Assembly: GCA_903872065.1 (NCBI GenBank)
Contig: CAIQJJ010000830.1
Location: 1-36,311 of the forward strand
Length of the DNA: 36,311 nt
Source: an uncultured Anaerolineales bacterium
GTDB lineage: Bacteria > Chloroflexota > Anaerolineae > Anaerolineales > UBA4823
Direction of reading: 5' to 3'
In this document: in pieces, positions 16,636 to 31,370 of the stretch
Position numbering within the stretch: the first letter of the stretch is position 1
How the letters are laid out: each line of letters begins with the position of its first letter
Position numbers and translations under genes: made by a program
The notes under the pieces: generated by a model
What the model was told of the DNA's origin: nothing
Database searches by the model: none
What the model saw: the letters and a program-made list of their open reading frames with translations, nothing else

Positions 16636-16678
16636 AACCCTAAAGGTCTTCTTAGACCTTTAGGGTTTGTCTTTTTTT
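16636..16678 (+). terminator. Rho-independent terminator after korB
   Basis: A 14-bp perfect stem (AACCCTAAAGGTCT at 16636-16649 and its complement at 16654-16667) with loop TCTT is followed by TGTC and seven Ts. It sits 15 bases after the korB stop and before the convergent SIS gene. A partial echo of the right arm (AGACCTTTAG) recurs at 16679-16688. No U-run serves the minus strand. Confidence 0.93.
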
Positions 16679-16693
16679 AGACCTTTAGACTTG

Positions 16694-17422
16694 TTACAGG
16701 TACGTCAGCCGGCCGCGGTAATGCTCCAGCCAACGCTGGTTGTGCGCATCGCCGCCGTCCAGGTTGGCGCTTAAGAAAACGGGGGTATCGCCGGTGTGTT
16801 CCAGGATCAGGCTGGCGGCGCGGGCGATGACCGCGTTCAGCATGGCCGCCCCGGTCACAGTGGAGGATGGGCCGACCTTTTGCAGCAGGCCGGGCAGTTC
16901 CACCAGCGCGTCGCCGATGGGGGCGCGGTTATCCAGCACCAGGTCGGCGACCTCGAAGAGGCGCGGCATGCCGGCGGCCCGCGGGGCGACGGAACTGGAA
17001 TAGGCCACTGAGGTCAGGGCAATCACATACGCGCCGCGGGCCTTGCCGCCCTGCGCGACCTCCACCGCCACGGCGTTGCGCCCGGAGACCGAGTGGACGA
17101 TCAACACGTCGCCGGCAGCGATGGCCGATTCGGCGATGATCTGCGTCCCGAAGCCGGGCAGCCGCTCCAGCCGGCTGGTCAGCGTCACCGGGCGCACATC
17201 GGTGGTCAGGCCGGGCGGCAGGATGGGATTGACCGGCACCATGCCGCCGGCGCGATAAAACAGTTCTTGCGCCAGGATGCCGGCATGCGAAGCGCCAAAC
17301 ACGTACAGCAGATGTTCGCTTTCGATGGCCGCGGCCACTTTTTGGGCGGCCTGTTCGAGCGCCTCGCTCTGCGTGTCGCGCACTTCTTGCAACAAACGGA
17401 TCACCTGATCAAGATAGTTCAT
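16694..17422 (-). CDS. SIS-domain sugar-phosphate isomerase-like protein (second of a tandem pair)
   Basis: A 242-residue cytoplasmic protein of the SIS_2/"sugar isomerase domain" type. The phosphosugar-binding loop FGASHAG is at 42-48 and the Ser-rich loop HSVSGRNAVAVEVA at about 110-123; the domain order is as in single-SIS proteins. SIS proteins isomerise, deaminate or cleave phosphosugars, or sense them. Its ATG follows the stop of the upstream SIS gene directly (TAGATG), so the two are co-translated. They are clearly related along their length (HxAGGxV, DxxVxSVSGxxxxxxEVA, LVLDNxAPxGDALxE), implying gene duplication and perhaps a heteromer. In this locus, isomerase/deaminase action on an amino-sugar phosphate is plausible but not shown. 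Confidence 0.87.
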   Translation of the reverse strand: MNYLDQVIRLLQEVRDTQSEALEQAAQKVAAAIESEHLLYVFGASHAGILAQELFYRAGGMVPVNPILPPGLTTDVRPVTLTSRLERLPGFGTQIIAESAIAAGDVLIVHSVSGRNAVAVEVAQGGKARGAYVIALTSVAYSSSVAPRAAGMPRLFEVADLVLDNRAPIGDALVELPGLLQKVGPSSTVTGAAMLNAVIARAASLILEHTGDTPVFLSANLDGGDAHNQRWLEHYRGRLTYL

Positions 17423-18157
17423 CTAATACCCCTTTCGCAGTCCTTCCGCCACTACCTGGCTGACCAGCGACGCGCCGTCCGGGCGATTGACGCTCGGATA
17501 AACGGTCGGCTTCAGGCCGCGCGCCAGCATTTCTTCGATCGTCCCGGCCACTACCGCCCACATGGTGGTCGCCGCACCCAGGCCCGATTCGGGGCAGACC
17601 GGGTAATCCAGCCCTTCCACTTCCAGCAGCGCGTCGCCGTAGGGGGCGTGATTGTCCAGCACCAGGTCGGCTGCTTCATAAAGATGCTTGCCGGAGGGAT
17701 GCTCCGAAACCAGGCGTGAACTGTAGGCCAGGGCGGTCAGGGCGATCACTTTCAGCCCGTGGGCGCGTCCTTGCAAGGCGACTTCGATCACGTTCGCCGT
17801 TTTTCCTGAGACGCTGCCGACGAAAAGCACATCCCCGGCGCGCAGTTGGTTGGTATCGAAGACATGTTTGATGTAGCCGTAGGAGAGGTCGCTGCCGGCA
17901 GGCAGGGGGACGTCGGCGCGCGTCCGCACCAGGTTGTTCACATTCAGCCCAAAAGTGAGGGCGCTCAGGGCCACCAATCCACCGGCGCGGTGGATCAGTT
18001 CGCTGGAAACCATGTGGCCGCTGTCGAAAATGTGGATCGCTCCGCCGTTGGCCAGCGAATCGGCGCACAGCCTGGCCGCGGCCTTGATCGGTTCGGTATC
18101 GGCGGCGATTTCGGCAATTTTGGCCTGTAAAGTTTCAAAATAACGTTCGATTAACAT
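17423..18157 (-). CDS. SIS-domain sugar-phosphate isomerase-like protein (first of a tandem pair)
   Basis: A 244-residue protein of the same family as its downstream neighbour. The phosphosugar loop is IFDSGHMVSSELIHRAGG (about 43-60) and the second loop GSVSGKTANVIEVA (about 114-127). The first loop has DSGHM where the neighbour has GASHAG, so the two copies differ at the substrate site. The start at 18157 has AAAGGAG 5 bases upstream; an in-frame ATG at 18199 lies in the pseudogene and has no such site. It probably acts on phosphosugars in the cytoplasm. Upstream lies a decayed membrane-protein gene and then the BadF-type kinase gene. Confidence 0.87.
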   Translation of the reverse strand: MLIERYFETLQAKIAEIAADTEPIKAAARLCADSLANGGAIHIFDSGHMVSSELIHRAGGLVALSALTFGLNVNNLVRTRADVPLPAGSDLSYGYIKHVFDTNQLRAGDVLFVGSVSGKTANVIEVALQGRAHGLKVIALTALAYSSRLVSEHPSGKHLYEAADLVLDNHAPYGDALLEVEGLDYPVCPESGLGAATTMWAVVAGTIEEMLARGLKPTVYPSVNRPDGASLVSQVVAEGLRKGY

Positions 18158-18164
18158 GCTGACT

Positions 18165-18487
18165 CCTTTGAAAGTATCGTTGGCGCGCGCCCAGGGCAAG
18201 GCTGCCGGCGGCGCTGGCCATTAGGGGAATAAGGGATAAGAGATTGAAAAAATGCTGCGCCGCCGGCATCTGCCACGCCGGCTGGCGGCGGTTGACGAAG
18301 TCGAGTACCACTGCATTTGCAAGCCATTGATGCGAAAGTGCAGTTCCGTGTCCAACATGCGCGGGATGAAATAGCGGTAATCGTGTCCCACCAGGGGTAA
18401 GTCGCCTGGACATAACCAACCAGGAACAGGCTCAGGATTGCCCAGGAGAGGAGCAGTAAGAGGATGGTCCCAATGCTTCATGGCGGC
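18165..18487 (-). pseudogene. Frameshifted remnant of a multi-pass membrane protein gene
   Basis: This 340-base gap between the BadF and SIS genes holds pieces of one protein in three minus-strand frames. From the ATG at 18481, one frame gives MKHW. A second frame gives the hydrophobic helix TILLLLLSWAILSLFLVG followed by YVQATYP. After a shift in the C-run near 18385, the first frame gives VGHDYRYFIPRMLDTELHFR and INGLQMQWYS. A third frame near 18310-18170 gives NLLSLIPLMASAAGSLALG, which may be a terminal helix. Adding one C to the run joins YVQATYP to LVGHDYRYF smoothly. The arrangement suggests a large internal deletion plus point frameshifts. The original family (perhaps a large glycosyltransferase-like membrane protein) is a guess. 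Confidence 0.65.
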
Positions 18488-18496
18488 AGATCATAT

Positions 18497-19423
18497 TCAC
18501 TTTCCTAAATCATAGAGCGCCATCTTCCCCAGAGCGATCGCCGGCGCTTCGCTGCCCAGGAGAAAGCGCGCCTGCGGGAACTCATCCAATATCCCCTGGC
18601 GCAGGGGGGCCAGGATCAGTTCGCCGGCGTTGAGCAGGCCGCCGGCCGCCGCCACCGTGAACGTCTCGGCGGGAGTGAACAGGCTGCGCGCCGCGTGCAG
18701 CCCCAGGGCGGCCAGGTCGGCGGCGACTTTGGCTGTGATCCGGCTGGCCAGGGGGTCGCCTTCCTGCGCCAGGCGCGTCACCACCGCCGCTACCCCCCCG
18801 ATCTCGGCGCGGCTGAGCGGCTTTTGGTACGCCAGGTGCACCAACCCACGGTGAAAGTTTTCATAAGTCAGGTTGAAATGCTGCGCTACCCCTTCCACCA
18901 GGCGGGTGGGCAGCGCAGCGCGGCCCTCGTAGGCGCGCGCCGTCGCTCGCAGCCCGAGCAGCCCCATCGCATAAGCGCTGCCCTCGTCGCCGAGCAGTGA
19001 ACCCCATCCGCCGCAGGCGGACTGCCGCCCGTCGTCGGCGCGGATCGCCCAGGCGGTCGCGCCGGTCGCCGCCACCACGCCCACCCCATGTGGACGGTAG
19101 ACGCCGGCGCGAGCGAAGACCACGTCCCTTTCATTGTAATAACGATAGGCCGCGTTGGGACAAAGCTCGCTGAAGGTTTCTGGCCCAAAGCGCGGCCCCA
19201 CCAGCCCCGAAATGAAATGCTCGACCGCTTTGCCCTCGACCCCGCCAGTCTGCAGCGCCTCTTGCACCGCACTGTACACCGCCTGCTGCGCCTGGGCAAA
19301 GGCGACGAAATTGGTATTGACATCACTGGAATGGCTGACGGCCAGCACGCGCCCGCTCAAGTCCATTAATACAGCCTGGCTGCGTGTGCCGCCGCCCTCA
19401 AGAGAGATTAAATATCCTGTCAT
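18497..19423 (-). CDS. BadF/BadG/BcrA/BcrD-type ATPase, N-acetylglucosamine kinase-like
   Basis: A 308-residue sugar kinase of the ASKHA fold; this branch contains N-acetylglucosamine kinases. The phosphate-1 motif is LEGGGTRSQAVLMD (8-21), the phosphate-2 region GVVAATGATAWAI (115-127) and the family signature GGWGSLLGDEGSAYAMG is at 138-154. The adenosine loop VAAAGGLLNAGELI is near 255-270. Length is normal. The ribosome site is weak. It sits between the DUF5107 gene (116 bases upstream, with an intergenic hairpin repeat) and the membrane-protein remnant, in a locus with a sugar importer and a PIG-L deacetylase. Phosphorylation of an imported amino sugar is the likely role; a ketone/CoA-reductase activator role of the wider family is less likely by context. 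Confidence 0.85.
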   Translation of the reverse strand: MTGYLISLEGGGTRSQAVLMDLSGRVLAVSHSSDVNTNFVAFAQAQQAVYSAVQEALQTGGVEGKAVEHFISGLVGPRFGPETFSELCPNAAYRYYNERDVVFARAGVYRPHGVGVVAATGATAWAIRADDGRQSACGGWGSLLGDEGSAYAMGLLGLRATARAYEGRAALPTRLVEGVAQHFNLTYENFHRGLVHLAYQKPLSRAEIGGVAAVVTRLAQEGDPLASRITAKVAADLAALGLHAARSLFTPAETFTVAAAGGLLNAGELILAPLRQGILDEFPQARFLLGSEAPAIALGKMALYDLGK

Positions 19424-19463
19424 AGCAAAAAAATAAACGCTGAAAATAACGCTGTTGAGAGTA

Positions 19464-19517
19464 CAAAGACCGCTGAGTTGTTCTCGGCGTGCTCAGCGGT
19501 CTCTGCGGTGAAATTTT
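19464..19517 (-). repeat. Intergenic hairpin repeat, copy B
   Basis: Read on the minus strand it begins AAAATTTCACCGCAGAGACC and has an 11-bp perfect stem (AGACCGCTGAG at 19467-19477 and its complement at 19492-19502, loop 14 bases). Leader and stem match copy A at 7510-7555 closely. The element lies between the DUF5107 stop and the BadF start. It may slow transcription or mark RNA ends; no U-run follows. Confidence 0.75.
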
Positions 19518-19539
19518 GGCGGCAGCAAAGCCTGCGCCG

Positions 19540-21561
19540 CTAGTCGTTAATGCTGCGGAAATCAATGCGCGCCGGCGGCGGATAGAGCGCCTGCATCTCC
19601 TGGCGAGAGATCTCCTGGCGCGCCACACCGCGGCGGGCGGCTTCGCGCCGCGTTTGCAGCTCGAACCACAGGTCGGTCAGAGTCACCTCGCCCTCGCGCA
19701 CGATGGCGTACTCGCGCTGCAAGACCTCTTCGACCGCCGCCAGGTCGTCCAGCGCCAGGGCGAAGCGCCCGCGCAAAATCTGCACCCGGTCGGAGGCCTG
19801 CACCGCCGGCGGCAGCCCGGCGTAGACCGCCATGCCGCGCGCCCACTGCCCGGTCTCGGCCAGCTTTTCCAGGTATTCGATGGCCAGGCCGGTTGGCGGA
19901 TTGCCCGCCTGGGCGGCCAACTGCCAGGCCTTTTCGTAATACGCATTGGCCTGGGCGGCGTCCTTGCGCCGCAGGCTCAAGATCGCCAGGTTGCGGTAGG
20001 CCCAGGCTGAGGGCTGCTGGGCGATCGATTCTTGCCAGGCCTGTTCCGCCCCGTCTTCGTCGAAGCGTTCCATGCGCATGACGCCCAGATGCAGCAGGCT
20101 GTACCAGTTGCGCGGCGCTTGTTCAAGGCGCTGCACCCATTCATCCTGCACCATCCATTCCCCTGGCAGGTCAGCCGCCTCTTGCGCCGGCAAAGCGCCC
20201 TCATTCAGCAGCGCCAGCCATTTTTTCTGCTCTGCGCCCAGGCTGGTTTCAGGGAAGACGAACGCTGGCGGCAGGCCCGCTTCCGCCGCCGCCGCCCGCC
20301 GCCTGGCCTCCAGTGCCCCCCAACCGGAGGCGCTTTGTAAGATCACTGACGAGGCGTGATCGGCGCGCTGCCGGCAGCTTGCCTCGAGATCGTACAGCGC
20401 GGCGACGGATACCTGGGCATGGAGCGATTGTTCCACCGTCCGCCAGGCGGCCGTCCAATCCTGTCCGTGCACGCGTTCCGCTTCCGCCTCCACATACCCA
20501 AAGATCTGTGTCCAGTCCCAGGTGGTATTGGCCGGCATGGGCAGCCCATGTACTTGCGTCGGGGCCAGGCCGCCTTGAATCTCCAGATAAGCTTCGCCGG
20601 GCTGCGCCAGGAACTCTTGCCAGTGCCGCCCGCCGGGGTGCGTCCCCCAGCAGAACAGCTTGCGATACTTCAGGCGGCTGGTTGAGGCCTCGATGAAGCC
20701 GCCGCCTTTTTCGTCCAGGGCTGCTTCCCAGGGCATGGGCGTATCGTCGCACTGGAAGAAGAACTCGTTGGCAAAGGTGGAGTTGAGCGAATACGTGCCA
20801 TCCGCCCCGTTCAGCGAGGGCAGGTGGGGCATTTCGGTCACGCCAAAGGCGGCCCCGTTCACATCGAACACGCCGTAGATGGCCTGCGCCGCCGGCGAAA
20901 GCACACGCACGCCGGGCCGCTCATTGACCGCGGTGTTCGTCCACCAATACATCGAAGTGGGGGCGTCATTCGGATTGACCACACGGGTGTAGGCGATCAA
21001 AAAAGGAAAGCCGGGCGGCAGGTAAAAATCAATTTGCCAGAGCAGGCGCTTGCAGCGTTCGAACTCGTACAGGCGCAGGCCGGGCGAACCGTCGGCGGCC
21101 TGGATGGCGGCGGCGAAGAGCGGCGAGCAGGTGGCGAAGGTATGCCCCACCTGCCCGATATTCCATTCGATGCCGCCGGAGAGCCAGGCGTTGCGGATCG
21201 CCAGGTTGGCCGGCTGAAAGACCGGGTTGCGGTGCAGCAGTTCGCGCTGCTGCGGTTTGTAAACCAGTGAGATCAGGCGTCCGCCCACTTCGGGCAAGAA
21301 AGTCGCCTTAAGAAATTCATTTTCCAGCACGACCGAGCGGAAGGTCAGCGCCTGGCGCTGGCGCGTGTACTCGTCTTGCATGCGATAGGGCAGGACGCGG
21401 AAAGCCGTTTCCCAGCCCAGGTAGGCGAGCTTGGCCTCGGGGAAAGGCGGGCGGGTCTTGATCTCCAGGCTGATCGCCGGATCGCGAAAGAAGGGCAGGG
21501 GATTTTCCGCTCCGAGCGGCGCGCCGGGGATGGTGAGGGGTTCGCTGCGTAGTTCAGTCAT
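19540..21561 (-). CDS. DUF5107-domain protein with C-terminal TPR repeats
   Basis: A 673-residue cytoplasmic protein. The N-terminal part carries the DUF5107 signature: LENEFLKATFLPEVGGRLIS at about 79-98, then the pattern ELLHRNPVFQPANLAIRNAW and SGGIEWNIGQVGHT. This resembles the galactose-mutarotase-like beta-sandwich of carbohydrate-active proteins. The rest of that region has many conserved Trp and aromatic residues. From about residue 430 to 640 tetratricopeptide-like helices follow (WYSLLHLGVMRMERFDEDGA, AWAYRNLAILSLRRKDAAQA). No signal peptide. The start at 21561 lies 4 bases after the permease stop and has AAAGG upstream, so it is translated with the transporter operon. The biochemical function is not known; a glycoside-related hydrolase or sugar-binding role inside the cell is an inference from context. 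Confidence 0.85.
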   Translation of the reverse strand: MTELRSEPLTIPGAPLGAENPLPFFRDPAISLEIKTRPPFPEAKLAYLGWETAFRVLPYRMQDEYTRQRQALTFRSVVLENEFLKATFLPEVGGRLISLVYKPQQRELLHRNPVFQPANLAIRNAWLSGGIEWNIGQVGHTFATCSPLFAAAIQAADGSPGLRLYEFERCKRLLWQIDFYLPPGFPFLIAYTRVVNPNDAPTSMYWWTNTAVNERPGVRVLSPAAQAIYGVFDVNGAAFGVTEMPHLPSLNGADGTYSLNSTFANEFFFQCDDTPMPWEAALDEKGGGFIEASTSRLKYRKLFCWGTHPGGRHWQEFLAQPGEAYLEIQGGLAPTQVHGLPMPANTTWDWTQIFGYVEAEAERVHGQDWTAAWRTVEQSLHAQVSVAALYDLEASCRQRADHASSVILQSASGWGALEARRRAAAAEAGLPPAFVFPETSLGAEQKKWLALLNEGALPAQEAADLPGEWMVQDEWVQRLEQAPRNWYSLLHLGVMRMERFDEDGAEQAWQESIAQQPSAWAYRNLAILSLRRKDAAQANAYYEKAWQLAAQAGNPPTGLAIEYLEKLAETGQWARGMAVYAGLPPAVQASDRVQILRGRFALALDDLAAVEEVLQREYAIVREGEVTLTDLWFELQTRREAARRGVARQEISRQEMQALYPPPARIDFRSIND

Positions 21562-21565
21562 GAGT

Positions 21566-22423
21566 TTAGCCTTTGAGCGCCCCAACCGTCAAGCCGCGCT
21601 GAATCTGGTTCTGGAAGATGACGTAGACGATCAGCGTCGGCAGCATGACGATCACAATCGCTGCGAACAGCCCGCTCCAGTCGCTTTGGTAGCGCTGCTG
21701 ATGCTGCAAAAAGGCCAGGCCTTGCGACAAAACATATTTATCGCTGGAAGTGAGCAGCACCAGCGGCAGGATGTACTGGTTCCACATCCCCAGGAAGTTG
21801 AAGATGCCCATGCTGACCAGGCCGTTCTGCGCCAGGGGGATCACGATCAGGAAGAACAACTGGTAGTTATTCGCGCCGTCAATGATCGCCGCTTCAATCA
21901 AATCGGAGGGAATCGTTTTGAAGAAGCCGGTTAAAAAGAACACTGTAAACGGCAGCGAATAGGCGATATACACCAGGATCAACCCAAAATGGGTGTCAAT
22001 GATCTTCATGGACTGGAGCAGGAAGAAGAGCGGCACTAAGGCCAGCATGACCGGGAACAACATGCCGCCCATGAAGGCGTAAAAGATGATGCGGTTGCCG
22101 GGGAATTCGTAGCGCGCCAGCACATAGCCCGCCATCGCCGAGAAGAGCAGGGTGAAAAAGATGGACGGCAGGATGACGGTCAGGCTGTTGACCAGGTACA
22201 GGCCGATATTGGCCTTGGTCAAAGCGCGCACAAAGTTGTCCCACATCAACTGGGCCGGCAGCTGCCAGGGGCTTAAGAAAATCTCCTTATCCGTTTTGAA
22301 GGAGGTGACAATCACCCACAGCATTGGAAACACGACGATAATCGTCCAGCTTGCCAAAAACAGGTAGATGACGGTGTTAATGATAATTTCAAGCAGTTTA
22401 TTTGGCGATCCTTGGCGTTCCAT
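21566..22423 (-). CDS. Carbohydrate ABC transporter permease, MalG type
   Basis: A 285-residue inner-membrane permease with six predicted helices, the first at about 13-33 (VIYLFLASWTIIVVFPMLWV). The EAA loop that contacts the ATPase is EAAIIDGANNYQLFFLIVIP near residues 176-195. It pairs with the MalF-type permease gene 18 bases upstream. No ATPase gene is found in the locus; as in many CUT1 systems, a shared MsmK/MalK-like ATPase elsewhere would serve it. Sugar specificity cannot be told, but neighbours point to an acetylated amino sugar. Confidence 0.94.
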   Translation of the reverse strand: MERQGSPNKLLEIIINTVIYLFLASWTIIVVFPMLWVIVTSFKTDKEIFLSPWQLPAQLMWDNFVRALTKANIGLYLVNSLTVILPSIFFTLLFSAMAGYVLARYEFPGNRIIFYAFMGGMLFPVMLALVPLFFLLQSMKIIDTHFGLILVYIAYSLPFTVFFLTGFFKTIPSDLIEAAIIDGANNYQLFFLIVIPLAQNGLVSMGIFNFLGMWNQYILPLVLLTSSDKYVLSQGLAFLQHQQRYQSDWSGLFAAIVIVMLPTLIVYVIFQNQIQRGLTVGALKG

Positions 22424-22441
22424 GGTTTACCTCTCTGGCGA

Positions 22442-23350
22442 TCAATATTCTACGGCTTCGCGGCGGGTGACGCGCATCGTCAGCGCCGAAAGGGTGAGCA
22501 TGAGCAGGAAGAGCGATACTGCAATCGCCGTAGCATAGCCAAAGCGGCTCGCCTCAAACGCTTGCTCATAGAGGTAGGTGGCCAGCACGTCTGCTGGACG
22601 GGTTTGCGACGAGCCGCTGACCACCATCACGCGAGTGATGGCAAACATATCGAACGCGCCAAGTCCCGAAAAGACCAGGGCGGTTTGCATCGTGTCCCAC
22701 AGCAGGGGGATGGTGATATTCCAGAACTGGTGCCACCGGTTGGCGCCGTCAATGATGGCGGCTTCGTAGAAGGTTTGCGGGATAGCTTCCATGGCTGCCA
22801 GGAACAAGACCATGTAAAAGCCGGCCGCCTGCCAGACCACCACCGCGCCAATGGCGATGCGCACGGTGCGTTCATCTCCCACCCAGACCGGGATGCCTTC
22901 AAAGCCAAAGATTTGGAAGAACCATTCCAGGTGGGCGGCTTGCAGCAGCGAGGTCAGGATGCCGATCGTGGGGTGGTAAACGTAGCTCCACAGCACGCCG
23001 ATCGAAATGATCGAGATGACCTGCGGGAAGAAGAACGTCACGCGGAAGAATTTGCTGAAGCGAATGCGCTGGCTGATCATAAAGGCCAGGAACAGGCTCA
23101 ACGAAATGATGATAATCGGTAGGAAGAGCAGGTATTGCAGATTGTGAATTAAGGCATTCCAGAAAAATTCATCATTGATCATGCGGACATAGTTGTACAA
23201 CCCAACAAAGGGCTGGTTGGCGCTGACGCCTTTCCAACTGGTGAGCGAGTTATACATGGATCGTGCATACGGGTAGATCACGAAAACCAGGTATAAAATG
23301 ACGGCTGGCGCCAGGAATGGGATAATGACGCGATATTTATGCTTATACAT
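22442..23350 (-). CDS. Sugar ABC transporter permease, MalF/UgpA type
   Basis: A 302-residue inner-membrane permease with six helices, the first at about 10-31 (IPFLAPAVILYLVFVIYPYA). The EAA loop is EAAIIDGANRWHQFWNITIP at about 195-214. It lies between the binding-protein gene, from which it is separated by 127 bases containing a stable hairpin, and the MalG-type gene. It forms the channel together with the latter. Length and motif are typical of CUT1-family importers. Confidence 0.94.
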   Translation of the reverse strand: MYKHKYRVIIPFLAPAVILYLVFVIYPYARSMYNSLTSWKGVSANQPFVGLYNYVRMINDEFFWNALIHNLQYLLFLPIIIISLSLFLAFMISQRIRFSKFFRVTFFFPQVISIISIGVLWSYVYHPTIGILTSLLQAAHLEWFFQIFGFEGIPVWVGDERTVRIAIGAVVVWQAAGFYMVLFLAAMEAIPQTFYEAAIIDGANRWHQFWNITIPLLWDTMQTALVFSGLGAFDMFAITRVMVVSGSSQTRPADVLATYLYEQAFEASRFGYATAIAVSLFLLMLTLSALTMRVTRREAVEY

Positions 23351-23400
23351 AGGTGGTCTCCCTACCAGGTAATTTTGCCTTTAGGAACAAGATCATGGAT

Positions 23401-23443
23401 TTCCGGGATGGGAAAGCCTGAGAACAGCTTCCCCATCCCGGAA
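23401..23443 (-). other. Intercistronic hairpin between binding-protein and permease genes
   Basis: Arms of 17 bases (23401-23417 and 23427-23443) pair with one mismatch and leave a 9-base loop; the core is CCGGGATGGG/CCCATCCCGG. No U-run follows in either direction. In sugar-importer operons such a stem often protects the upstream mRNA and reduces read-through, giving more binding protein than permease. That role is inferred from position. Confidence 0.7.
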
Positions 23444-23477
23444 GAATAGATCAAACCTTGTTCAGCCTTACACGGGA

Positions 23478-24926
23478 TTATTTCGTGCGCTTGAACTTGG
23501 TGACCTCAGGATCGGCCTTGACCTTATCGGCCATCTTTTGGACAGCTTCGATGTACTGATCGGGGTTGATCTTGCCAGTGAGCAGTTCGCCCGTCTTGGC
23601 GTCCGCTTCCTTGCCCAGGTCGCTGTACCAACCGCCGTAGTTCATCCAGGGGAAGGTCTTGCCAGCGCAGACTTCGGCCAGCTTGACGGCGGATTCCATG
23701 CCGGCGCTGACCTTGACGCCCTCGGTGCCGCCGTAGACCGGCATCATCGAGCTGACGTTGACCGCGAAGTACTTGGCGCTGTCCTTGGACATCAAGCAGC
23801 GCAGGTATTCCATGCCCGCGATGGGGTTCTTGGCTTTGGACGGAACGATGAAAGGTTCGCCGCCCGCTGCCAGGCAGGCATCGCCCTCGCCGGGGACCTG
23901 GTTGATCACCATGTCGAAGCCCTCGGGGGTCGAGCTCTTCATTTCGTTTTCCAGCCAGGTGCCGCACGGAATGAAGACGGCTTTGCCCTTCAGCCATTCC
24001 GCCTGCGACTCGGTGTGGTTGAGGCCCTCGGTGCCTTCCATGATGTACTTGTTTTCGTACAGTTGGTACATCTCTTTAACGGAACTGACCACTGCATCGC
24101 TGTACCAGGCTTTGTCTTCCAGGTTGTCAATGTCAATCATTGCCTTCATGCCGCCCTTCTTGAAGATCATGTGATGCAGGCAGCCGAAGAGCATGTAGCC
24201 GGGGTATTTACCCTGGTAAGTCCAGGGGGCGATGCCGGCGGTTTTGATTGTCTCGCACAAAGCCAACATTTCGGGCCAGGTCTTCGGATAAGTCCAGCCC
24301 TTGTCCTTGAACAGGGTGCTGCTGTACCAGATGCCGGCCACAGTGTAACCCACGTTGACGGCGTACAGTTTGCCATCAATCAAGTTGCCATCCTGCGAAC
24401 CAGGGAAGAGCGACTGTTCGAAGGTTTTGCCGGGATTGTCGAGCGACATGGCGGCCATCAGGGGGGCCAGGTCGAGCAACTGACCTTCAGAAACCAGCGC
24501 GCCGTAGTCCAACGCGCCCGCGCCGCTGTTGTCAATCACATCGGGCGGGTTGCCGCCGACGAACCGTGGGCGGAGTTTTTCACCAACGCCCTGGATCGGT
24601 TCAACCGTGAGTTTGCTGCCCGGGTGAACCTTGGCAAACAGATCGGCGCCATATTGAATGTAGGCGTGACCATAACCACCGGAGAAGAAAACGCCCTCGG
24701 CAGTGACGGGTTCGGGCATCTTCAGTGGGTTGACGGCGTCCGCGGCGACTTCGAAGGGCAGGTCAAGCTTGGGGGCTGCCGTCGGCTCTTCCTTCTTCGG
24801 TTCCTCAGCCTTGGGGGCGGTGGTAGCGGTGGGGGCCGCTGCCGGCTGTCCGCAGGCTGCCAAAACGGTCGCGCCGCCAACCATGGCGGTGGTCTTCAAA
24901 AAGTCACGTCGGGTTAACTTCTTCAT
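23478..24926 (-). CDS. Extracellular sugar-binding lipoprotein of a CUT1 ABC importer
   Basis: A 482-residue solute-binding protein. The N terminus combines a twin-arginine motif (TRRDFLK, residues 5-11), a hydrophobic stretch and a lipobox LAAC with Cys25. It should therefore be exported folded by Tat and anchored by lipid on the outer face of the membrane. A Pro/Ala/Thr/Glu-rich linker to about residue 60 follows, then the bilobal family-1 binding domain (GGYGHAYIQYGADLFAKVHP; WLKGKAVFIPCGTWLENEMK). The start at 24926 has AGGAGG 8 bases upstream; a longer start at 24962 lacks support. It supplies substrate to the two permeases downstream. The ligand is unknown. The 192 bases upstream contain no promoter I can defend. 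Confidence 0.92.
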   Translation of the reverse strand: MKKLTRRDFLKTTAMVGGATVLAACGQPAAAPTATTAPKAEEPKKEEPTAAPKLDLPFEVAADAVNPLKMPEPVTAEGVFFSGGYGHAYIQYGADLFAKVHPGSKLTVEPIQGVGEKLRPRFVGGNPPDVIDNSGAGALDYGALVSEGQLLDLAPLMAAMSLDNPGKTFEQSLFPGSQDGNLIDGKLYAVNVGYTVAGIWYSSTLFKDKGWTYPKTWPEMLALCETIKTAGIAPWTYQGKYPGYMLFGCLHHMIFKKGGMKAMIDIDNLEDKAWYSDAVVSSVKEMYQLYENKYIMEGTEGLNHTESQAEWLKGKAVFIPCGTWLENEMKSSTPEGFDMVINQVPGEGDACLAAGGEPFIVPSKAKNPIAGMEYLRCLMSKDSAKYFAVNVSSMMPVYGGTEGVKVSAGMESAVKLAEVCAGKTFPWMNYGGWYSDLGKEADAKTGELLTGKINPDQYIEAVQKMADKVKADPEVTKFKRTK

Positions 24927-25118
24927 AAAATCTGCCTCCTGAAAATAGATGATTTGGGTCAAACTGAAAAAAGGTTGGATAACGGTTTTCTCTCTGTGGG
25001 CCGGGGTGGCCTCACGAGAACACGGGTGGATCGGAGCAACGTGGATGAGAATATTGGCTGGCAGACACCTCCTTCTCCCTGGCGGGGGATGAATGATTTC
25101 CTTCCGGGCCAGGAACCC

Positions 25119-25967
25119 CTAGCCCACGCGTTGCAGACGGCTGGCTACGTCTTGGGCAAAACGCTGGATGTGTTCTTGCACGAAGGCAGCCACATCTTGT
25201 TGGGGATTTTCGATGAGCGGGGTCAGGTCCATCGCATAAGATAAGCCGAAGGCGTTATCTACCCCATGGGATTCAAAATAGGTGGCGTTGGCGCGCCGGC
25301 GGCCCATGGAGGCCAGGTCGTAGCGTTTTCCACCGGCGATCTGCGAGTCGAATACGCCGAGCAGGGCGGATTGCAGGTTTTCGTGCTGGCTGAGATTCAT
25401 GCCCACTTTATCGTTGTCTACCATCCAATCCAGGTCGCGCCATACCTCGCAGCCGTAAACTTTCTGCGGGCGTTCCTCCGCCGGCAGGCTGCGCAGGGCG
25501 GCGATCACTTTCAGCGCCACGCCGACGTGGGTATCGTGCTTGTCGGCCAGGTTGTGCGTGTAGACGAACTGGGGGTGCGCGGCGCGCAGCAGAGCGGCCA
25601 GGTCTTCTACTGGCTGTGGGTTGCGTCCATCCTTGACACTCTTGCTCGGATAGTCGAGCAGCGCCAGGGCGGCAAACTCGCCGACGATAGCGGCTTTCTT
25701 TTGCTCCTTAAAGCGCACCTGGCGCATGGCCTCGTCGGTGTAGTTTTGGTAGATGTCGGCGCGCGGCGAGCCGCGTCCGTCTGTGACTACTACCCCGCTA
25801 AACCAGCGATCCATTTGCTGGAAGCATTCGATAATCGGCGCCGCGGCCATAATTTCGATGTCGTCCTGGTGAGCGGCGATGGCGATATGTGTGGTGCGCG
25901 CCAGGGCCTGCTCGACCGGCAGACCATCGGGGATAAAAATTTCAGCCGTGGGAAGATGAAAATTCAT
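25119..25967 (-). CDS. PIG-L family deacetylase, second copy (variant metal motifs)
   Basis: A 282-residue metal-dependent deacetylase-like protein. The first motif reads AHQDD (32-36) instead of AHPDD, and the second reads HNLADKHDTHV (138-148) rather than HPDH. This is a pattern found in a distinct branch of the PIG-L/LmbE family. The glycine/aromatic region DGRGSPRADIYQNYT (63-77) is also of this branch. The start at 25967 is supported by AAAAGGA upstream. It lies between the ROK kinase and the sugar-binding protein genes. In this locus it may remove the N-acetyl group of an imported amino sugar or its conjugate, taking the place of NagA; this is inference. Confidence 0.85.
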   Translation of the reverse strand: MNFHLPTAEIFIPDGLPVEQALARTTHIAIAAHQDDIEIMAAAPIIECFQQMDRWFSGVVVTDGRGSPRADIYQNYTDEAMRQVRFKEQKKAAIVGEFAALALLDYPSKSVKDGRNPQPVEDLAALLRAAHPQFVYTHNLADKHDTHVGVALKVIAALRSLPAEERPQKVYGCEVWRDLDWMVDNDKVGMNLSQHENLQSALLGVFDSQIAGGKRYDLASMGRRRANATYFESHGVDNAFGLSYAMDLTPLIENPQQDVAAFVQEHIQRFAQDVASRLQRVG

Positions 25968-26035
25968 AGTTTTTCCTTTTGAACACACAAGGCTCTTGTA
26001 TTGTAAACCGATCTAAGTTGCTTGGATAGTGGCGA

Positions 26036-27445
26036 TTAGATTAATTCTGGCAGGCTGGCGGCGGCGATGGATTGGCCCACACGGCGGCTCTTTTCATCGG
26101 GCAACTGCACGCGAATGCGGGCGGCCAGGTCAGGAAATTCGGCTTGCAGCACCTGGTTGGCGTAATCCAGGATCAGGCTTCCGCCGCTGCCTGAGGTGCA
26201 GCGTCCCAGGATCAGCGCGTGCTTGACTTCATAGAAGTCGGCGTAATGCGCCAGGGCGTAGCCCAGGTAAATGCCCATGCTCTGCCAGATTTTCTGCGCG
26301 CCCTCGTGACCGGCTTCCAGTTTCCCCTGGACGAATTTAAGTTTTTCGGCGTCGGTCACGCCGGCGGGCAGTTCGATGCCAGCCTTGCCGGCCAGGCGGA
26401 AGACGCACTGCTGCGAGAAATAGAGCGCCCCGCAGCCGATGTCGCCCGACCATTCATCTGCCGGCGCCTGCGGGTTGTAATCCACCGGCGCGAAGGCCAG
26501 CTCGCTCAACCAGTTCATCACATGGCCGTGCATGTCCACATAACCGGCGGCTTCGCTGGAACCCAGCGCAATCCCCAGGATGCCATTGTCTTCCAACGAC
26601 ATCGAACCCGCCAGGGCGGTCACATCGCCGTCGTTGATCACTTCCAGCGGGACTTTGAGTTCGTCGCGGATGCGCAAGAAGAGGTTTTTGATCTCGCCAA
26701 AGCGTTCCGCTGGAATGCCGCGGAACAGCGAGGCCACCATGGGTCGGTTGTCAATGTAGATGCCGGCCGAACTGCCGCCAATGGCGTCCACGCGCGGCAT
26801 TTTGGCCGCCGCTGATTGCAGCGCTGCCATGATTTCGCGGTAGTGGTACTCAGGGTCGCTGTGTTTGCGCGGCTCCCAGACCACCTCTTCACTGTACACG
26901 GCCTGGCCGTCAATCACCGCGCTCACCTTGCGGTCGGACGCGCCCAGGTCGAAGCCGATGCGGCAGCCGTTCAGGTGCCGTCCCAGGTTTTTGGCGATCT
27001 CGCGCGCTGGCGGTACTGCAGACGGGTTGCAGCAAACGACGGTGAAATCCTGTTCGTAGACCTGCTGACCCATAAAGTGATAGTCGAAGGCGCGCTGGCC
27101 GCCGGGGGCGTAACACTGGCGGATGGCTGCGCCGATCGGTCGTTCGCCTTGGCGGTCGGGCAGTTCGCCGATGTACACTTTCCAGCCGCCGCGCTGCCAG
27201 AGCAAGAACTTGACCAGCCGTTCGACGTAGTCGAAGTTGGCGGCCGCGGCGGGATGCTGCGCCGGCAGGACGACTGTTTCAAAGCGGGAGACTTCGCCGT
27301 TATTCCGCTCCAGGCCGATCACCAGCGGGACGCCCTCCGCCTGGGCGGCGCTGCGAAAGGCGCGGTTGATCAACGAAGCGGGGATGAAATCGCTGTCCAG
27401 CGGGGGGATATATTTGGGTTGGATGAGGTTGAAGAATTGCTTCAT
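26036..27445 (-). CDS. ROK-family sugar kinase-like protein with extra N-terminal domain
   Basis: A 469-residue protein, about 150 residues longer than common ROK kinases. The ROK/ASKHA part starts with IGFDLGASDRKVSAVIDG (163-180). It continues through GGSSAGIYIDNRPM, the catalytic-loop NDGD (271-274) and the phosphate-2 motif GIALGSSEAAGYVD (291-304). The zinc motif CxCGxxGC of typical ROK proteins is absent; instead there is GDIGCGALYFSQQC. The first about 160 residues have no feature I can name (LVIGLERNNGEVSRFETVVL and WQRGGWKVYIGELPDRQG look like beta-strands). No helix-turn-helix is seen, so it is an enzyme candidate rather than a repressor. It starts 21 bases after the repressor stop, without a clear ribosome site, suggesting coupling. 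Confidence 0.82.
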   Translation of the reverse strand: MKQFFNLIQPKYIPPLDSDFIPASLINRAFRSAAQAEGVPLVIGLERNNGEVSRFETVVLPAQHPAAAANFDYVERLVKFLLWQRGGWKVYIGELPDRQGERPIGAAIRQCYAPGGQRAFDYHFMGQQVYEQDFTVVCCNPSAVPPAREIAKNLGRHLNGCRIGFDLGASDRKVSAVIDGQAVYSEEVVWEPRKHSDPEYHYREIMAALQSAAAKMPRVDAIGGSSAGIYIDNRPMVASLFRGIPAERFGEIKNLFLRIRDELKVPLEVINDGDVTALAGSMSLEDNGILGIALGSSEAAGYVDMHGHVMNWLSELAFAPVDYNPQAPADEWSGDIGCGALYFSQQCVFRLAGKAGIELPAGVTDAEKLKFVQGKLEAGHEGAQKIWQSMGIYLGYALAHYADFYEVKHALILGRCTSGSGGSLILDYANQVLQAEFPDLAARIRVQLPDEKSRRVGQSIAAASLPELI

Positions 27446-27466
27446 GCGGCAGATTCCGTTTCAAGA

Positions 27467-28681
27467 TCATTGTTTTTGAAATAGCAAAGAATAGTTACTG
27501 GCCATGAGCGCCGAAACGCCCAGGATGACATCATTATCTTTCAGATCGCCGATTTGCACGCTGGTCTCCTGCGCCAGGCGGCCCAGGGTAGCTTGCGACA
27601 TCGTTTCTTGAATGGCGGCCAGCCAGGGTTGGCCGAAGCAGGCCATATCGCCGATCAGGATGATTTTGTGGATATTGAGGGTGCTGATTAAATTTGCCAG
27701 GGCGATTCCCAGGTAGCGCCCGGCTTCCAGCACGATCTCCTGCGCCAATGCATCGCCTTCAGCAAAAGCCTGCTCAATCAGTTCCAGCGTGATCGAACCG
27801 GCGTGCTTTGCCAGGGCAGTTGGCTGTGGGTATGGGGGGATGCGCATCACAGCAAGTTCGGCGCGCTGCACCAGAGCGTTGGCGCTGGCCAGGGTCTCCA
27901 GGCAGCCCACGTTGCCGCAGCGGCAGGATAAGGTCTGGTCGGTGGTTACAACGATATGACCAATCTCCCCTGCCGATCCGCCATCGCCTTGAAAGATCTG
28001 CCCATTGATGATGATGCCGGCTCCGATGCCATGTCCGACGCGCACCACCACCATGTTGCGCGCCTCCGAGAGATCGGCGGCATAGATGTATTCGCCCATG
28101 GCGGCGGCCTGGCAGTCGTTGAGCAGGCAGACCGGCAGGTGATAGCGTTCTTCGAGCAGCTTGCCCAGCGGCAGGTTGACCCAATCCAGGTTGACGGCGT
28201 TGATCACGACGCCGTCTTTGCTGTTGATCAGGCCCGGAGCGCCGATGCCAATCCCTACCAGGGGTTGGTGAGTCGGCAGGCCTGGCCCGATCAGGTGGTC
28301 AATGATTTCGCAAGTCGTTTGCAGGGCGGCTTCACGGTTGCATTCTTTGATCGGGCGGCTGACGAAAGCGCAGATTTGCCCGCGCAAATTGACGATGGCC
28401 CCGCTGAATTTGTTGCGCGCCAGGTCCAGCCCGATCAGGTAGCGCGAGTCCGCGGCAATGTCTAATAAGATAGGAGATTTTCCACCCAGCGAAGAGCCTG
28501 TCCCCACTTCTTTCACCAGCCTCTCGTCAAGCAAGTCTGAGACGATGTCCGAAACCGTGGTGCGCGTCAGGCGGGTGACGCGGGCGATCTCGGCGCGGCT
28601 GATATCAGAGCGCTCGAAGATCGTCTTCAACACCAGGTTGCGGTTTTGCTCTTTGATTTGATGGCGAGTGGCTTTTTCCAT
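27467..28681 (-). CDS. ROK-family transcriptional repressor (NagC/XylR-like)
   Basis: A 404-residue regulator with an N-terminal winged helix (residues about 8-60; SRAEIARVTRLTRTTVSDIV is the recognition part) and a ROK sugar-binding domain. The zinc site is complete: His242 in GEIGHIVV and Cys253, Cys255 and Cys260 in CRCGNVGC. The kinase-like residues N188-D189 remain, so sugar binding is expected. Members repress sugar catabolism until their sugar or sugar phosphate binds. A promoter and an 11-bp-arm palindrome lie directly in front of the gene, which indicates autoregulation. It starts the group of ROK kinase, PIG-L deacetylase and ABC importer and is probably their local regulator. Confidence 0.92.
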   Translation of the reverse strand: MEKATRHQIKEQNRNLVLKTIFERSDISRAEIARVTRLTRTTVSDIVSDLLDERLVKEVGTGSSLGGKSPILLDIAADSRYLIGLDLARNKFSGAIVNLRGQICAFVSRPIKECNREAALQTTCEIIDHLIGPGLPTHQPLVGIGIGAPGLINSKDGVVINAVNLDWVNLPLGKLLEERYHLPVCLLNDCQAAAMGEYIYAADLSEARNMVVVRVGHGIGAGIIINGQIFQGDGGSAGEIGHIVVTTDQTLSCRCGNVGCLETLASANALVQRAELAVMRIPPYPQPTALAKHAGSITLELIEQAFAEGDALAQEIVLEAGRYLGIALANLISTLNIHKIILIGDMACFGQPWLAAIQETMSQATLGRLAQETSVQIGDLKDNDVILGVSALMASNYSLLFQKQ

Positions 28682-28712: not shown

Positions 28713-28771
28713 GCTTTGTAAGTTCATTGTACTTACAAGGCAGAGTATAACAAATTTTTCAAAAAAGTCAA
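28713..28771 (-). promoter_or_regulatory. Promoter and operator of the ROK repressor gene
   Basis: On the minus strand, TTGACT (28766-28771), a 16-bp spacer and TATACT (28744-28749) make a good promoter. Directly downstream, over the expected start, lies an inverted repeat with 11-bp arms (28713-28723 and 28731-28741, one mismatch, 7-bp spacer; core TTGTAAGT-N7-ACTTACAA). Size and layout match operators of ROK repressors. I found no second good copy of the core in the other intergenic regions of the locus. Confidence 0.75.
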
Positions 28772-28781
28772 TATATTCTTC

Positions 28782-31370
28782 TTACGGGTGCGGATGGTAG
28801 TATCCCTGGGCGTGCATGCGCTCGTGCAGAGTGCGCCGCGCGGCTTCCAATTCCAGGCGCATGCGTTTGTAGACGCGATCCTCGGCGCGCGTGCCGACTG
28901 TATCCAGGTAAACCAGAGCGCCCTCAATCTGCTCCAGGATCGTGACTCCGTCCGCCGCCGCCAGCAGCGGCGACCCGGCGACCAACGCCATCACCGGCGA
29001 GGAGTGGGCGGCGATGATTTCACGGCGATCGGAATAGCCGCCGCGCACCAGCAGCGCCAGCCAGGAGCTTTTGTCCACCTTAACCGACCAGTGGCCGGCC
29101 GCTTCCCAATGATCTCCCGCAGTGTTTGACACCGCGGCAGTCTGGCGGATCTCGCCGTTGACGATCAGGTCGACGCGTGAGACCGGCGTAGTGACGCTGG
29201 CAACCTGCCAGTGGACATCCAGCGTTCCGCCGCTGGCGGGCAGTTCCAGACGGCTGCCCATCGGTTTGCCCTCGACGGTGAACTCTAGCAAGGGGCCATA
29301 GCTGACGAAGGTCTCGGCGCGGCGCACAGCTTCCATCCAGGCCTCGTAAGTGAAGGGTGTATCGTGCGCCAGGCGGGCGTAAGTGCGCACTGTGCCCACT
29401 GCCGTGCTGGACGCCATTTTGTCCGTGCCGCCCACCGCCGCCAGCCGGTAGCCGCAGTTCAAATAGCGGTACCAGTCCGACAGCGAATAGGGGTCAATCC
29501 CGGCGTATAGATTTTCCCAGGAGGTCATTTCGATGGCGTCAATTTCGCCTTGCACCACACCGGCGGCATGTTCGGCGCGCGGGTTGGGGAAATGCGGCAG
29601 CACCACCAGCCCGCCTTGCTGTTTGCACTGCCTGGCCCATTCGAGCAGCAGCCCATCCACCGCGTCGCCCAACGCGGCTTCATCCGGGCCGCCCCTGGTC
29701 ATGGGAGCGATGATCGGCCCCCGGTAGCCCAGGAGCGAAATATGCCCCATCACGTGCTGGCGATTCTCCGTCCCCACACGCACCAGGTATTCGCCGTCCC
29801 CGCCAGTCTCGCGCGATCCCCACGTGTTGCGCCCGTCAAAATCGCCGACATTGGTCATCAGTTCGCCCCACTGGCTGGCCAGCAGGTTAATCACGTTCAC
29901 CCCTTCCGCCGCCCCCTCCAGCAGCGCCGAGATCGGCGACAGGAAATGCACATGCGTATCCGCCGTCACCCAACCCTTCTCGCGCCAGGGCAGCCGCTTC
30001 TCGATCTCGATCACCACCTCTTGCGTCTCAGGCGTGATCTGCAGGACTTGATGCACCGGCCGGATCTCGAAGCCCTTGGAGACCTCCAGGTACACTTTCC
30101 CCACCGGCAGCTTGACCACCGTCTCGCCGTTGATGTAAGTGCAGGGGTGCATCGGGCCTGGGCGCTCCCAATCTACATGGGCGAAGTCCACACTATAATC
30201 CTCAAACCAGGCCGGGTTGAGGATGCGGTGGCGATCCACCGGCGCCAAATACTCGCCGGCCTCGCCGTGCAAATGCAGCTTGACCGGCGTCGCTTTGCGG
30301 CTCTCTTTTTCCACCACGCGCAGCTTCACCACCTGCGTCGCCGTCTCGATGGGTGTGAGCTCTTCGGAAAGTGGGGAGTGGGAAGTGGGAAGTGGGGTGG
30401 GGTGGGTGAGGGCGAGCCGCCCATCCCACAGATGAAAGCGCGCTTGCGGGTGAGCAGTATATTCAATGATCACCTCATTGGCTGCCTGGCGCGGCATCTG
30501 ATTGTTGTAGCCGCTCTCCCAGGCTTCATTATTATACAACGGGCGCGGCGTAGCCGAGATGACCTGCCCCAGGTCGAGTTGGATTTGCGCCAACAGCCCG
30601 TTCTTGTCCAGGTCGGGTTGGAACGCCATACCTTCCGGCAGGCGCAGGCAGGCCTTGCGGCGCGTCTCCCAGCGCAGCGGCAGCGCCTCCACATTGCCCG
30701 CCGCCAGGCCAGAGACAATCAGCAGCCCACAAACCGGCTCGAAGCGGATGGCGACGATCGCTTTTTCCGCCGCCGCGTTTTCCCAATGCGGATTTTCCCA
30801 CGCCCAGAGCCAGTGCATCAAAGGCGACCAGTCGGCGGTGGCGGCGCGCGTCTGCGTAAAGCCCCAACCGGGGTTAAGCTGCTCGTGAGCGGCGCGCATT
30901 GGGTGCGGTTTGTGCTGCGCCACCGCCTCGAAGCAGTTCTCGCCCCAGCCGCGCTGGAAGGCGCCCAACTGATGGCGGCGGCGGATGGGCAGGCGCGCCT
31001 CGCTGCCGTCGGCGTAGCAGATTACATAATCGGCAGCGTGTTCACCCAACCGCCCATGCCCGCTCGAAGCGGGGATGAAGCCGTCCTGGTTGAACTCCAG
31101 CGGGCGTATATCCGAGGTGTGCAGAAAAACCAACCAGCGGGCATGCGTCGGGCTGACCTCGACCCGCACGGGCTGATCGTACAGAACAACCGGCGTCTCG
31201 ACCTGGAAGGGGATGCCCCAGGCGGCGCACTGCCCCTGCGGGGCGTGCGGGCGCGCCTCCAACAGCGTTTTTGAGGCGGGGGTTTGCTCCAGGCTGGATA
31301 AAGGTAGATTCCCTTGAAAAGGGAGAGGGGAGAAGAAAGGTGAGACCGGGCCATCAGAAATCGCAGGCAT
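28782..31370 (-). CDS. CehA/McbA-type PHP-domain metallohydrolase
   Basis: An 862-residue protein. The C-terminal half holds a PHP-like domain: GWVTADTHVHF with metal ligands Asp471, His473 and His475, the glycine/aliphatic run EGVNVINLLASQWG, then VVLPHFPNP with His593. The family contains carbaryl hydrolase CehA and many carbohydrate-locus proteins of unknown substrate. The first about 450 residues are beta-rich and not recognised. GGAGG precedes the ATG by 5 bases. Two parts appear to derive from low-complexity DNA: residues about 8-30 (PVSPFFSPLPFQGNLPLSSL) and about 320-345 (LTHPTPLPTSHSPLSEE). No signal peptide. It lies between the UroD-family gene (87 bases upstream) and the ROK repressor. 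Hydrolysis of an ester, amide or phosphoester of the imported glycoconjugate is possible. Confidence 0.8.
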   Translation of the reverse strand: MPAISDGPVSPFFSPLPFQGNLPLSSLEQTPASKTLLEARPHAPQGQCAAWGIPFQVETPVVLYDQPVRVEVSPTHARWLVFLHTSDIRPLEFNQDGFIPASSGHGRLGEHAADYVICYADGSEARLPIRRRHQLGAFQRGWGENCFEAVAQHKPHPMRAAHEQLNPGWGFTQTRAATADWSPLMHWLWAWENPHWENAAAEKAIVAIRFEPVCGLLIVSGLAAGNVEALPLRWETRRKACLRLPEGMAFQPDLDKNGLLAQIQLDLGQVISATPRPLYNNEAWESGYNNQMPRQAANEVIIEYTAHPQARFHLWDGRLALTHPTPLPTSHSPLSEELTPIETATQVVKLRVVEKESRKATPVKLHLHGEAGEYLAPVDRHRILNPAWFEDYSVDFAHVDWERPGPMHPCTYINGETVVKLPVGKVYLEVSKGFEIRPVHQVLQITPETQEVVIEIEKRLPWREKGWVTADTHVHFLSPISALLEGAAEGVNVINLLASQWGELMTNVGDFDGRNTWGSRETGGDGEYLVRVGTENRQHVMGHISLLGYRGPIIAPMTRGGPDEAALGDAVDGLLLEWARQCKQQGGLVVLPHFPNPRAEHAAGVVQGEIDAIEMTSWENLYAGIDPYSLSDWYRYLNCGYRLAAVGGTDKMASSTAVGTVRTYARLAHDTPFTYEAWMEAVRRAETFVSYGPLLEFTVEGKPMGSRLELPASGGTLDVHWQVASVTTPVSRVDLIVNGEIRQTAAVSNTAGDHWEAAGHWSVKVDKSSWLALLVRGGYSDRREIIAAHSSPVMALVAGSPLLAAADGVTILEQIEGALVYLDTVGTRAEDRVYKRMRLELEAARRTLHERMHAQGYYHPHP
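30373..30406 (+). other. G-run cluster with quadruplex potential inside the CehA-like gene
   Basis: Six runs of three or four G occur at 30373-30376, 30380-30382, 30387-30389, 30394-30397, 30399-30402 and 30404-30406. The units resemble a 7-base repeat GGAAGTG/GGGAGTG. The run is on the template strand of the CehA-like gene and encodes a Pro/Thr/Ser-rich insert. Quadruplex formation is predicted from the runs only. Confidence 0.6.

Follow-up and report, generated by a model that had tools for sequence, protein, structure and literature searches.

A PIG-L family protein proposed to take the place of NagA in a putative N-acetylglucosamine operon of an uncultured Anaerolineales bacterium

The 36,311-nucleotide contig CAIQJJ010000830.1 of an uncultured Anaerolineales bacterium (assembly GCA_903872065.1), which we call the window, contains an operon of ten genes that probably serves the import and breakdown of N-acetylglucosamine (GlcNAc) or its short oligomers. 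In this pathway a PIG-L family protein is predicted to act as GlcNAc-6-phosphate deacetylase after a ROK-fold kinase, with a NagB-II protein as the deaminase. Open reading frames (ORFs) together with Pfam and NCBIfam scans of the window place all ten genes on the minus strand from position 28681 down to 16694, where a preliminary description of the sequence had put a one-directional run of genes. That description had proposed that a PIG-L protein takes the place of NagA and that two SIS proteins take the place of NagB. Judged from sequence and gene context it was half right, the first exchange being well supported by context and the second not.

NagA catalyses a textbook reaction in the breakdown of amino sugars, with GlcNAc-6-phosphate as its substrate, and it is used to judge from genomes whether an organism can grow on chitin, cell-wall or sialic-acid sugars. 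In the pathway that we propose, an NgcE-type importer would bring in GlcNAc or short GlcNAc oligomers, the divergent ROK-fold kinase would convert GlcNAc to GlcNAc-6-phosphate, and the PIG-L protein would strip the acetyl group to give glucosamine-6-phosphate, which is the reaction of NagA elsewhere. NagB-II would then make fructose-6-phosphate; its gene is on another contig here and belongs to the operon itself in many relatives. The ROK repressor would probably control the operon through a dyad ahead of its own gene. We infer the sugar, the individual catalytic steps and the regulation from gene families and gene order. The binding protein of the CUT1 importer passes the model for NgcE, a GlcNAc/diacetylchitobiose binding protein (468.5 against a cut-off of 399.65), and this match and the gene context of relatives bear out the amino-sugar uptake and breakdown suggested earlier. 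The window shares with the classical NagK-NagA-NagB pathway and its NagB-II form the sequence of import, kinase, deacetylase and deaminase, and differs from them in having PIG-L instead of NagA and a ROK-fold kinase that lies outside the Pfam and NCBIfam models.

The exchange of PIG-L for NagA is seen most directly beside the kinase gene. Sequence searches for the kinase covered the family of the window (38 genomes), 400 phylum genomes and a set of named genome contigs. Within the family, 11 of the 38 genomes gave a match at E ≤0.001, that of G010 being weak and partial. From the named contigs 80 loci were kept of 532 relatives, which biases the sample towards the subfamily of the window; these are mostly from Chloroflexota and Hydrogenedentota, with a few named Planctomycetota, Acidobacteriota and Elusimicrobia. 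Two of the resulting 110 loci (L039, L040) were dropped because the kinase was too short, and removal of seven duplicates from the 108 near full-length loci gave 101 distinct ones, the neighbours of which were scored by tblastn. The deacetylase gene adjoining the kinase was PIG-L in 79 loci, NagA in 13, neither in nine and both in none. In the tree built from the 101 kinases, loci with a NagA neighbour occupy two places, a deep clade of nine rows (seven with NagA, two without) and a group of six inside the PIG-L part, within a ten-row clade with an SH-aLRT of 97. Thus, the deacetylase neighbour changed at least twice on the kinase tree. TIGR00221 was applied to nine of the 13 NagA genes, and all nine exceed its cut-off.

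NagB-II was found within 9 kb in 27 of the 79 PIG-L loci and in six of the 13 NagA loci; the PIG-L loci also had GH3 (NagZ-like) genes in 15 cases and recognisable CUT1 permeases in 35. Locus L080 reads ROK repressor-kinase-PIG-L-permeases-GH3-NagB-II and L190 reads ROK repressor-permeases-GH3-NagB-II-NagA-kinase. By its gene content L190, which combines GH3, NagB-II and NagA in an operon of the same design, is the classical version of this operon; the deacetylase and the order of the genes set the two loci apart. Ornatilinea apprima P3M-1 (L084) likewise carries the operon with GH3 and has NagB-II close by.

A corresponding pattern was seen at the level of whole genomes. The kinase profile was matched by 24 of the 400 phylum genomes. 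Four weak matches (G205, G378, G380, G392) were dropped as their loci match the ROK repressor instead, nine belong to the deep, mostly NagA-linked clade, and one (G213) is a long lone branch. All of the ten that remained, which carry the kinase subfamily of the window, contain the PIG-L subfamily, in one case (G434) with kinase and PIG-L genes on different contigs; overall the subfamily occurs in 12 of the 400 genomes. NagA exceeded its cut-off in two of 13 PIG-L genomes versus nine of ten kinase genomes without PIG-L, the tenth of which scored 223.9 against 225.65 (Fisher p 6e-4, kinship not accounted for). Of the 13 PIG-L genomes searched for NagA, ten gave no gene scoring above 27 bits.

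In the sialic-acid pathway, NanK and NanE deliver GlcNAc-6-phosphate, which NagA then deacetylates. One genome with the PIG-L subfamily and without the window-type kinase (G374; locus L284, 5741-16435) has its PIG-L gene in such a setting, in an 11-gene co-directional run on one strand behind a GntR-like regulator. The first half of the run consists of NanE, two ABC-ATPase-like ORFs, an oligopeptide-type binding protein and two permease-like ORFs, the regulator, ATPase and permease labels being readings of ORF starts and not of a family search. The second half consists of a NanA-like lyase, a ROK/NanK-like kinase, YhcH, PIG-L and NagB-II. NanE was over its cut-off in one of six genomes searched, and that match (208 bits) is located in this run; no NagA match above 26.5 bits was found in the genome. 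This operon resembles known nan-nag operons in its NanE, NanA-like, ROK/NanK-like, YhcH and NagB-II genes and differs in having PIG-L where NagA is expected. Because NanE makes GlcNAc-6-phosphate, the deacetylase encoded here should act after phosphorylation, and we regard this operon as the strongest reason to place PIG-L after, not before, that step. Based on the exchange beside the kinase and on this sialic-acid operon, which both back the replacement of NagA first suggested, PIG-L most likely does the job of NagA on GlcNAc-6-phosphate.

The reverse order would be that of the archaeal Dac, with PIG-L deacetylating imported GlcNAc or its dimer (GlcNAc2) before phosphorylation and the ROK-fold kinase being a glucosamine kinase. 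The 13 loci in which the same kinase family stands beside NagA argue against this, since a NagA neighbour needs GlcNAc-6-phosphate and the kinase should then make it. The order would suit a binding protein of the GlcNAc/diacetylchitobiose type, and the PIG-L family does include TkDAC, an enzyme of chitin breakdown whose substrate is GlcNAc2 (PMC4101496). However, the PIG-L protein of G374 shares its operon with NanE, which yields GlcNAc-6-phosphate, and no solved Dac was matched by the window PIG-L at E ≤0.01 in a profile search. We consider it unlikely that deacetylation comes first. The route of Thermococcus and Pyrococcus (Dac, GlmA and a SIS-type deaminase) shares with the window a PIG-L family deacetylase in amino-sugar breakdown (PMC4101496, PMC9779004). 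It differs in that Dac acts on the free disaccharide, and the context in the window points to a phosphorylated monosaccharide. The deaminase of the archaeal route is presumably GlmD, in line with the name of the NCBIfam model NF041128.

The preliminary description had also said that a PIG-L/SIS route with an intracellular DUF5107 protein would be new to its author, which needs qualification since Thermococcus has a known PIG-L deacetylase that serves chitin breakdown (TkDAC, PMC4101496). That article contains neither "6-phosphate" nor "NagA". No report of a PIG-L GlcNAc-6-phosphate deacetylase was found in the open-access literature searched, judged by listings and the openings of abstracts; Streptomyces csnH is a GH4 hydrolase and not a PIG-L deacetylase, according to an excerpt of PMC5635096. 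Judged by its genes, the PIG-L-based pathway is most likely a new variant of the GlcNAc pathway. If this PIG-L subfamily does carry out the NagA step, genome-based judgements may wrongly count such pathways as incomplete in many Anaerolineae, because ten of the 13 PIG-L genomes lack a NagA gene above the score given.

The PIG-L protein of the window scores 59.1 bits against a PF02585 gathering score of 28.2. Residues H40, D42, D43, E45, H151 and H154 are present in 12 of 12 aligned rows; they cover HxDD and HxxH, which we take to be the metal and catalytic motif of PIG-L. The protein is not matched by the NagA model TIGR00221, and in a profile search against solved structures, 2ixd and 6p2t alone were found at E ≤0.01. 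A role in the biosynthesis of a thiol or glycoconjugate, rather than in sugar breakdown, would fit the best curated NCBIfam matches, which are weak hits of 27 bits to the bacillithiol deacetylases BshB2 and BshB1. These scores are far below the cut-offs of 195 and 182, and the neighbours of PIG-L genes are importers, hexosaminidases, kinases and deaminases, making a biosynthetic role extremely improbable. The window holds a second PIG-L gene (10208-10933, plus strand), and the genome has eight PIG-L matches.

The deaminase of this genome is, on sequence grounds, most likely a NagB-II protein encoded on contig C649 next to a GH20 gene (L177:10772-11827). It scores 237 against NF046059, the cut-off of which is 430, and this is nevertheless its best match. 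Contig C171 carries a NagB-like gene (122.5 bits, cut-off 236.9) beside a NagA-like one (158.6 bits, cut-off 225.65), both under their cut-offs; alignments to solved NagA enzymes cover most of the NagA-like protein (best E 2.5e-31). The absence of NagA and NagB noted earlier consequently holds for the gene cluster and not for the genome. Matches to PF01182 on contigs C394 and C764 were considered as NagB and rejected as 6-phosphogluconolactonase, the one on C394 lying directly after zwf.

Several observations weigh against the pathway that we propose. Similarity of the window PIG-L to solved PIG-L structures is weak throughout, the best E being 0.0017. The genome still has the NagA-like gene of C171, NagB-II lies outside the operon, and the dyad that precedes the operon was not found before the GH20/NagB-II pair. 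A relative whose operon matches that of the window gene for gene (G437) has NagA over the cut-off beside NagB-II. A second PIG-L genome without the kinase (G221) likewise holds NagA over the cut-off in addition to PIG-L; its PIG-L gene is near a contig end with no nag gene beside it. The NanA, NanK and NagB-II matches of G374 are under the curated cut-offs, and the flanks of many PIG-L loci, including those of Hydrogenedentota, are without any other nag gene. Because the window genome and G437 both hold a NagA or NagA-like gene, PIG-L is not simply filling an absence in them, and the cell may have two parallel routes, with the window operon providing one of them.

The two SIS proteins that end the operon, SIS1 and SIS2, both pass NF002805 (PRK02947, UPF0309) and are not of the NagB-II type. 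Their nearest solved structure is NagS of Streptomyces coelicolor (SCO4393), with an E of 4.2e-47 for SIS1 against 9eol_A. SIS1 is 39.7% identical to NagS over 239 aligned residues, keeps eight of the nine NagS site residues described in PMC12680351 and has all six activity residues (His53, Arg64, Ser91, Glu94, Asp179 and Asn228). SIS2 is 33.0% identical and differs in being without Ser91 and Glu94. Both fall below the 58.7% identity to NagS seen within Streptomycetaceae. According to PMC12680351, NagS dehydrates GlcNAc-6-phosphate, and homologues of 33, 26 and 36% identity had no or negligible activity, so the function of NagS cannot be carried over to the SIS pair.

UPF0309 genes also stand near nag genes elsewhere. 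We examined seven of 41 plasmid records with a match. On Planococcus and Priestia plasmids the gene accompanies nagE-nagA-nagB, and on a Rhizobium plasmid a SIS gene and nagA. On those of Microvirga and Nitratireductor it lies between genes named 6-phosphogluconolactonase and amidohydrolase, ahead of a CUT1 importer. On an Enterococcus raffinosus plasmid it follows a phosphotransferase system (PTS), and on one of Vibrio campbellii no sugar genes adjoin it. Among 20 UPF0309 loci of Chloroflexota, a NagA-like gene adjoins in four (L231, L233, L236, L243) and is elsewhere on the stretch in four more (L239, L241, L244, L249). This co-location provides a context for the family, in which the characterised protein that we encountered is NagS. 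Tandem UPF0309 pairs outside this operon occur in L243 and L237 (genomes G270 and G240). A SIS_2 match on contig C42 was considered as MurQ and rejected, as it is a third UPF0309 protein of the genome.

The proposal that the SIS pair serves as deaminase or isomerase in place of NagB draws on its position at the end of the operon, both in the window and in a second locus with the same gene order (L089), and on L186, where NagA and the kinase flank a UPF0309 gene. L186 itself encodes NagB-II, however, as does the genome of the window. In relatives of the operon, too, the deaminase is NagB-II, a SIS family other than UPF0309. The Planococcus, Priestia and Rhizobium operons already hold nagA and a deaminase gene, those of Microvirga and Nitratireductor have the 6-phosphogluconolactonase-named and amidohydrolase genes, and SIS2 lacks the Ser91 and Glu94 of NagS. 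We thus consider a replacement of NagB by the SIS pair very unlikely. UPF0309 looks accessory rather than a deaminase, because it sits in operons that already contain nagA and a deaminase gene.

The last four genes of the operon encode a DUF5107 protein, a BadF family protein, SIS2 and SIS1. Co-occurrence elsewhere, on which the earlier description had been left to depend, was confirmed for the ROK repressor, kinase, PIG-L and importer genes; the four-gene tail was found together only in the window and L089 among the loci compared. DUF5107 occurs without the rest of the tail in L033, L143 and L039. Within 9 kb it is present in four of the 79 PIG-L loci and GH3 in 15, with no locus having both; this mutual exclusion rests on too few loci to claim DUF5107 as a stand-in for GH3. 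Its predicted structure (mean pLDDT 52) was too poor to use, and a search of open-access literature listed one paper with the word DUF5107, on another subject.

The best solved match of the BadF protein is MurK, the BadF family MurNAc/GlcNAc kinase of Clostridium (8zo3, E 1.1e-18). The two are only distantly related, and the genome of the window has no MurQ over the cut-off (NF003915, best 40.1 versus 168). Possible roles are a second GlcNAc-type kinase for the BadF protein and, for the SIS pair, an accessory step on GlcNAc-6-phosphate-like sugars. A bolder possibility is that the tail forms a second entry branch. BadF would phosphorylate a 3-O-substituted GlcNAc such as N-acetylmuramic acid (MurNAc), the UPF0309 pair would remove the 3-substituent by the C2-C3 elimination chemistry of NagS and MurQ to give GlcNAc-6-phosphate for PIG-L, and DUF5107 would be an intracellular glycosidase in place of the GH3 of relatives. 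We think this distinctly unlikely; if true, UPF0309 would be a new etherase of the MurQ kind, working where the genome has no recognisable MurQ. One short contig (L244, genome G309) carries UPF0309, GH3, BadF, GntR, nagA and NagB-II together, a set that possibly resembles cell-wall sugar (MurNAc) salvage with UPF0309 in the place of MurQ and that we offer as a lead and not a finding.

The 469-aa kinase had been called a ROK kinase. It has no Pfam match, also at E ≤0.1, and no NCBIfam match, and the Pfam ROK profile (PF00480) does not recognise it. In a predicted model (mean pLDDT 69), residues 159-469 match ROK kinases by structure comparison, best by Z with ManNAc kinase 2yhy (Z 20.8, rmsd 4.0, 276 residues aligned) and also with GlcNAc kinase 7p9l (Z 20.0, rmsd 3.6, 279 aligned). 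The label is therefore correct at the level of the fold only and not by sequence family. Residue D272 is invariant in alignment A1 and is paired by hhalign with the Asp of the ROK "ND" motif. We take the ROK signature to be GE-G-H plus zinc cysteines (E239, H242, C253, C255 and C260 in alignment A5). In the kinase, hhalign sets SELAF opposite GEIGH and there is no CxCG run, so that the GE-G-H histidine and the zinc cysteines are absent; residue 318 is F or L in ten of ten aligned rows. The family of the kinase that stands beside PIG-L is thus one without a matching Pfam or NCBIfam model. A search of 72,556 plasmid records gave a single match, a 50% identical ROK-like kinase in Subdoligranulum variabile (Bacillota; OY725879.1, L223), which has no recognised nag gene within 8 kb.

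The features of the operon are listed in Table 1. The identical ten-gene order is present in Anaerolinea sp. isolate D180_metabat.33 (L089), and because of this recurrence we regard the arrangement as more than chance. With a promoter-like site, a dyad and a terminator-like stem, the ten genes look like one transcription unit.

Table 1. Genes and candidate regulatory sites of the operon, with positions in the window.
Feature	Position	Strand	Basis
ROK-family repressor, 404 aa	27467..28681	-	Pfam ROK 192.5 bits; nearest NCBIfam NagC 213.9, cut-off 650
Divergent ROK-fold sugar kinase, 469 aa, ~158 extra N-terminal residues, probably GlcNAc kinase	26036..27445	-	ROK fold
PIG-L deacetylase, proposed GlcNAc-6-phosphate deacetylase (NagA analogue)	25119..25988	-	Pfam PIG-L 59.1 bits, context
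CUT1 substrate-binding protein, NgcE type	23478..24962	-	TIGR03851 468.5 bits, cut-off 399.65
CUT1 permease 1	22442..23350	-	Pfam BPD_transp_1
CUT1 permease 2	21566..22423	-	Pfam BPD_transp_1
DUF5107 protein, TPR-like C-terminal part	19540..21585	-	Pfam DUF5107 105 bits; weak TPR-type matches
BadF/NagK-like kinase	18497..19423	-	Pfam 76.6 bits
UPF0309 SIS protein 2 (SIS2)	17423..18199	-	NF002805 203.4 bits, cut-off 135
UPF0309 SIS protein 1 (SIS1)	16694..17422	-	NF002805 281.9 bits, cut-off 135
Promoter-like site TTGACT-16-TATACT, TG ahead of second hexamer	28744..28771	-	promoter scan
Putative ROK operator, perfect dyad TTGTAAGT-7-ACTTACAA	28716..28738	.	dyad scan
Terminator-like 14-pair stem, between operon and convergent gene	16636..16667	.	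terminator scan, + strand report

The promoter scan of the region gave seven sites against 3.7 expected, modestly above chance, and the terminator scan 15 against 14.6, which is chance level. The operator-like dyad was matched once, and shuffled sequences gave a mean of 0.02 matches at ≤3 mismatches. Its consensus is ACTTTGTAAGT-N-CA-N-TG-N-ACTTACAAAGT. A search pattern derived from the window and from dyads seen in relatives located the dyad ahead of the ROK gene in 40 of 49 distinct loci (the window counted) versus one of 4900 shuffled regions. Allowing up to nine mismatches, we found it ahead of neither the GH20/NagB-II pair nor that of C171.

Two further genes lie close to the operon on the minus strand. 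One (28782-31370) is predicted to encode a CehA/McbA family metallohydrolase (145 bits, cut-off 80) without a Pfam match, and ends 100 bases ahead of the first gene of the operon. The other (31458-32519) resembles URO-D/MtaA-type methyltransferase genes, and a gene related to it stands after the permeases in several relatives (L035, L036, L103, L110, L116, L128).

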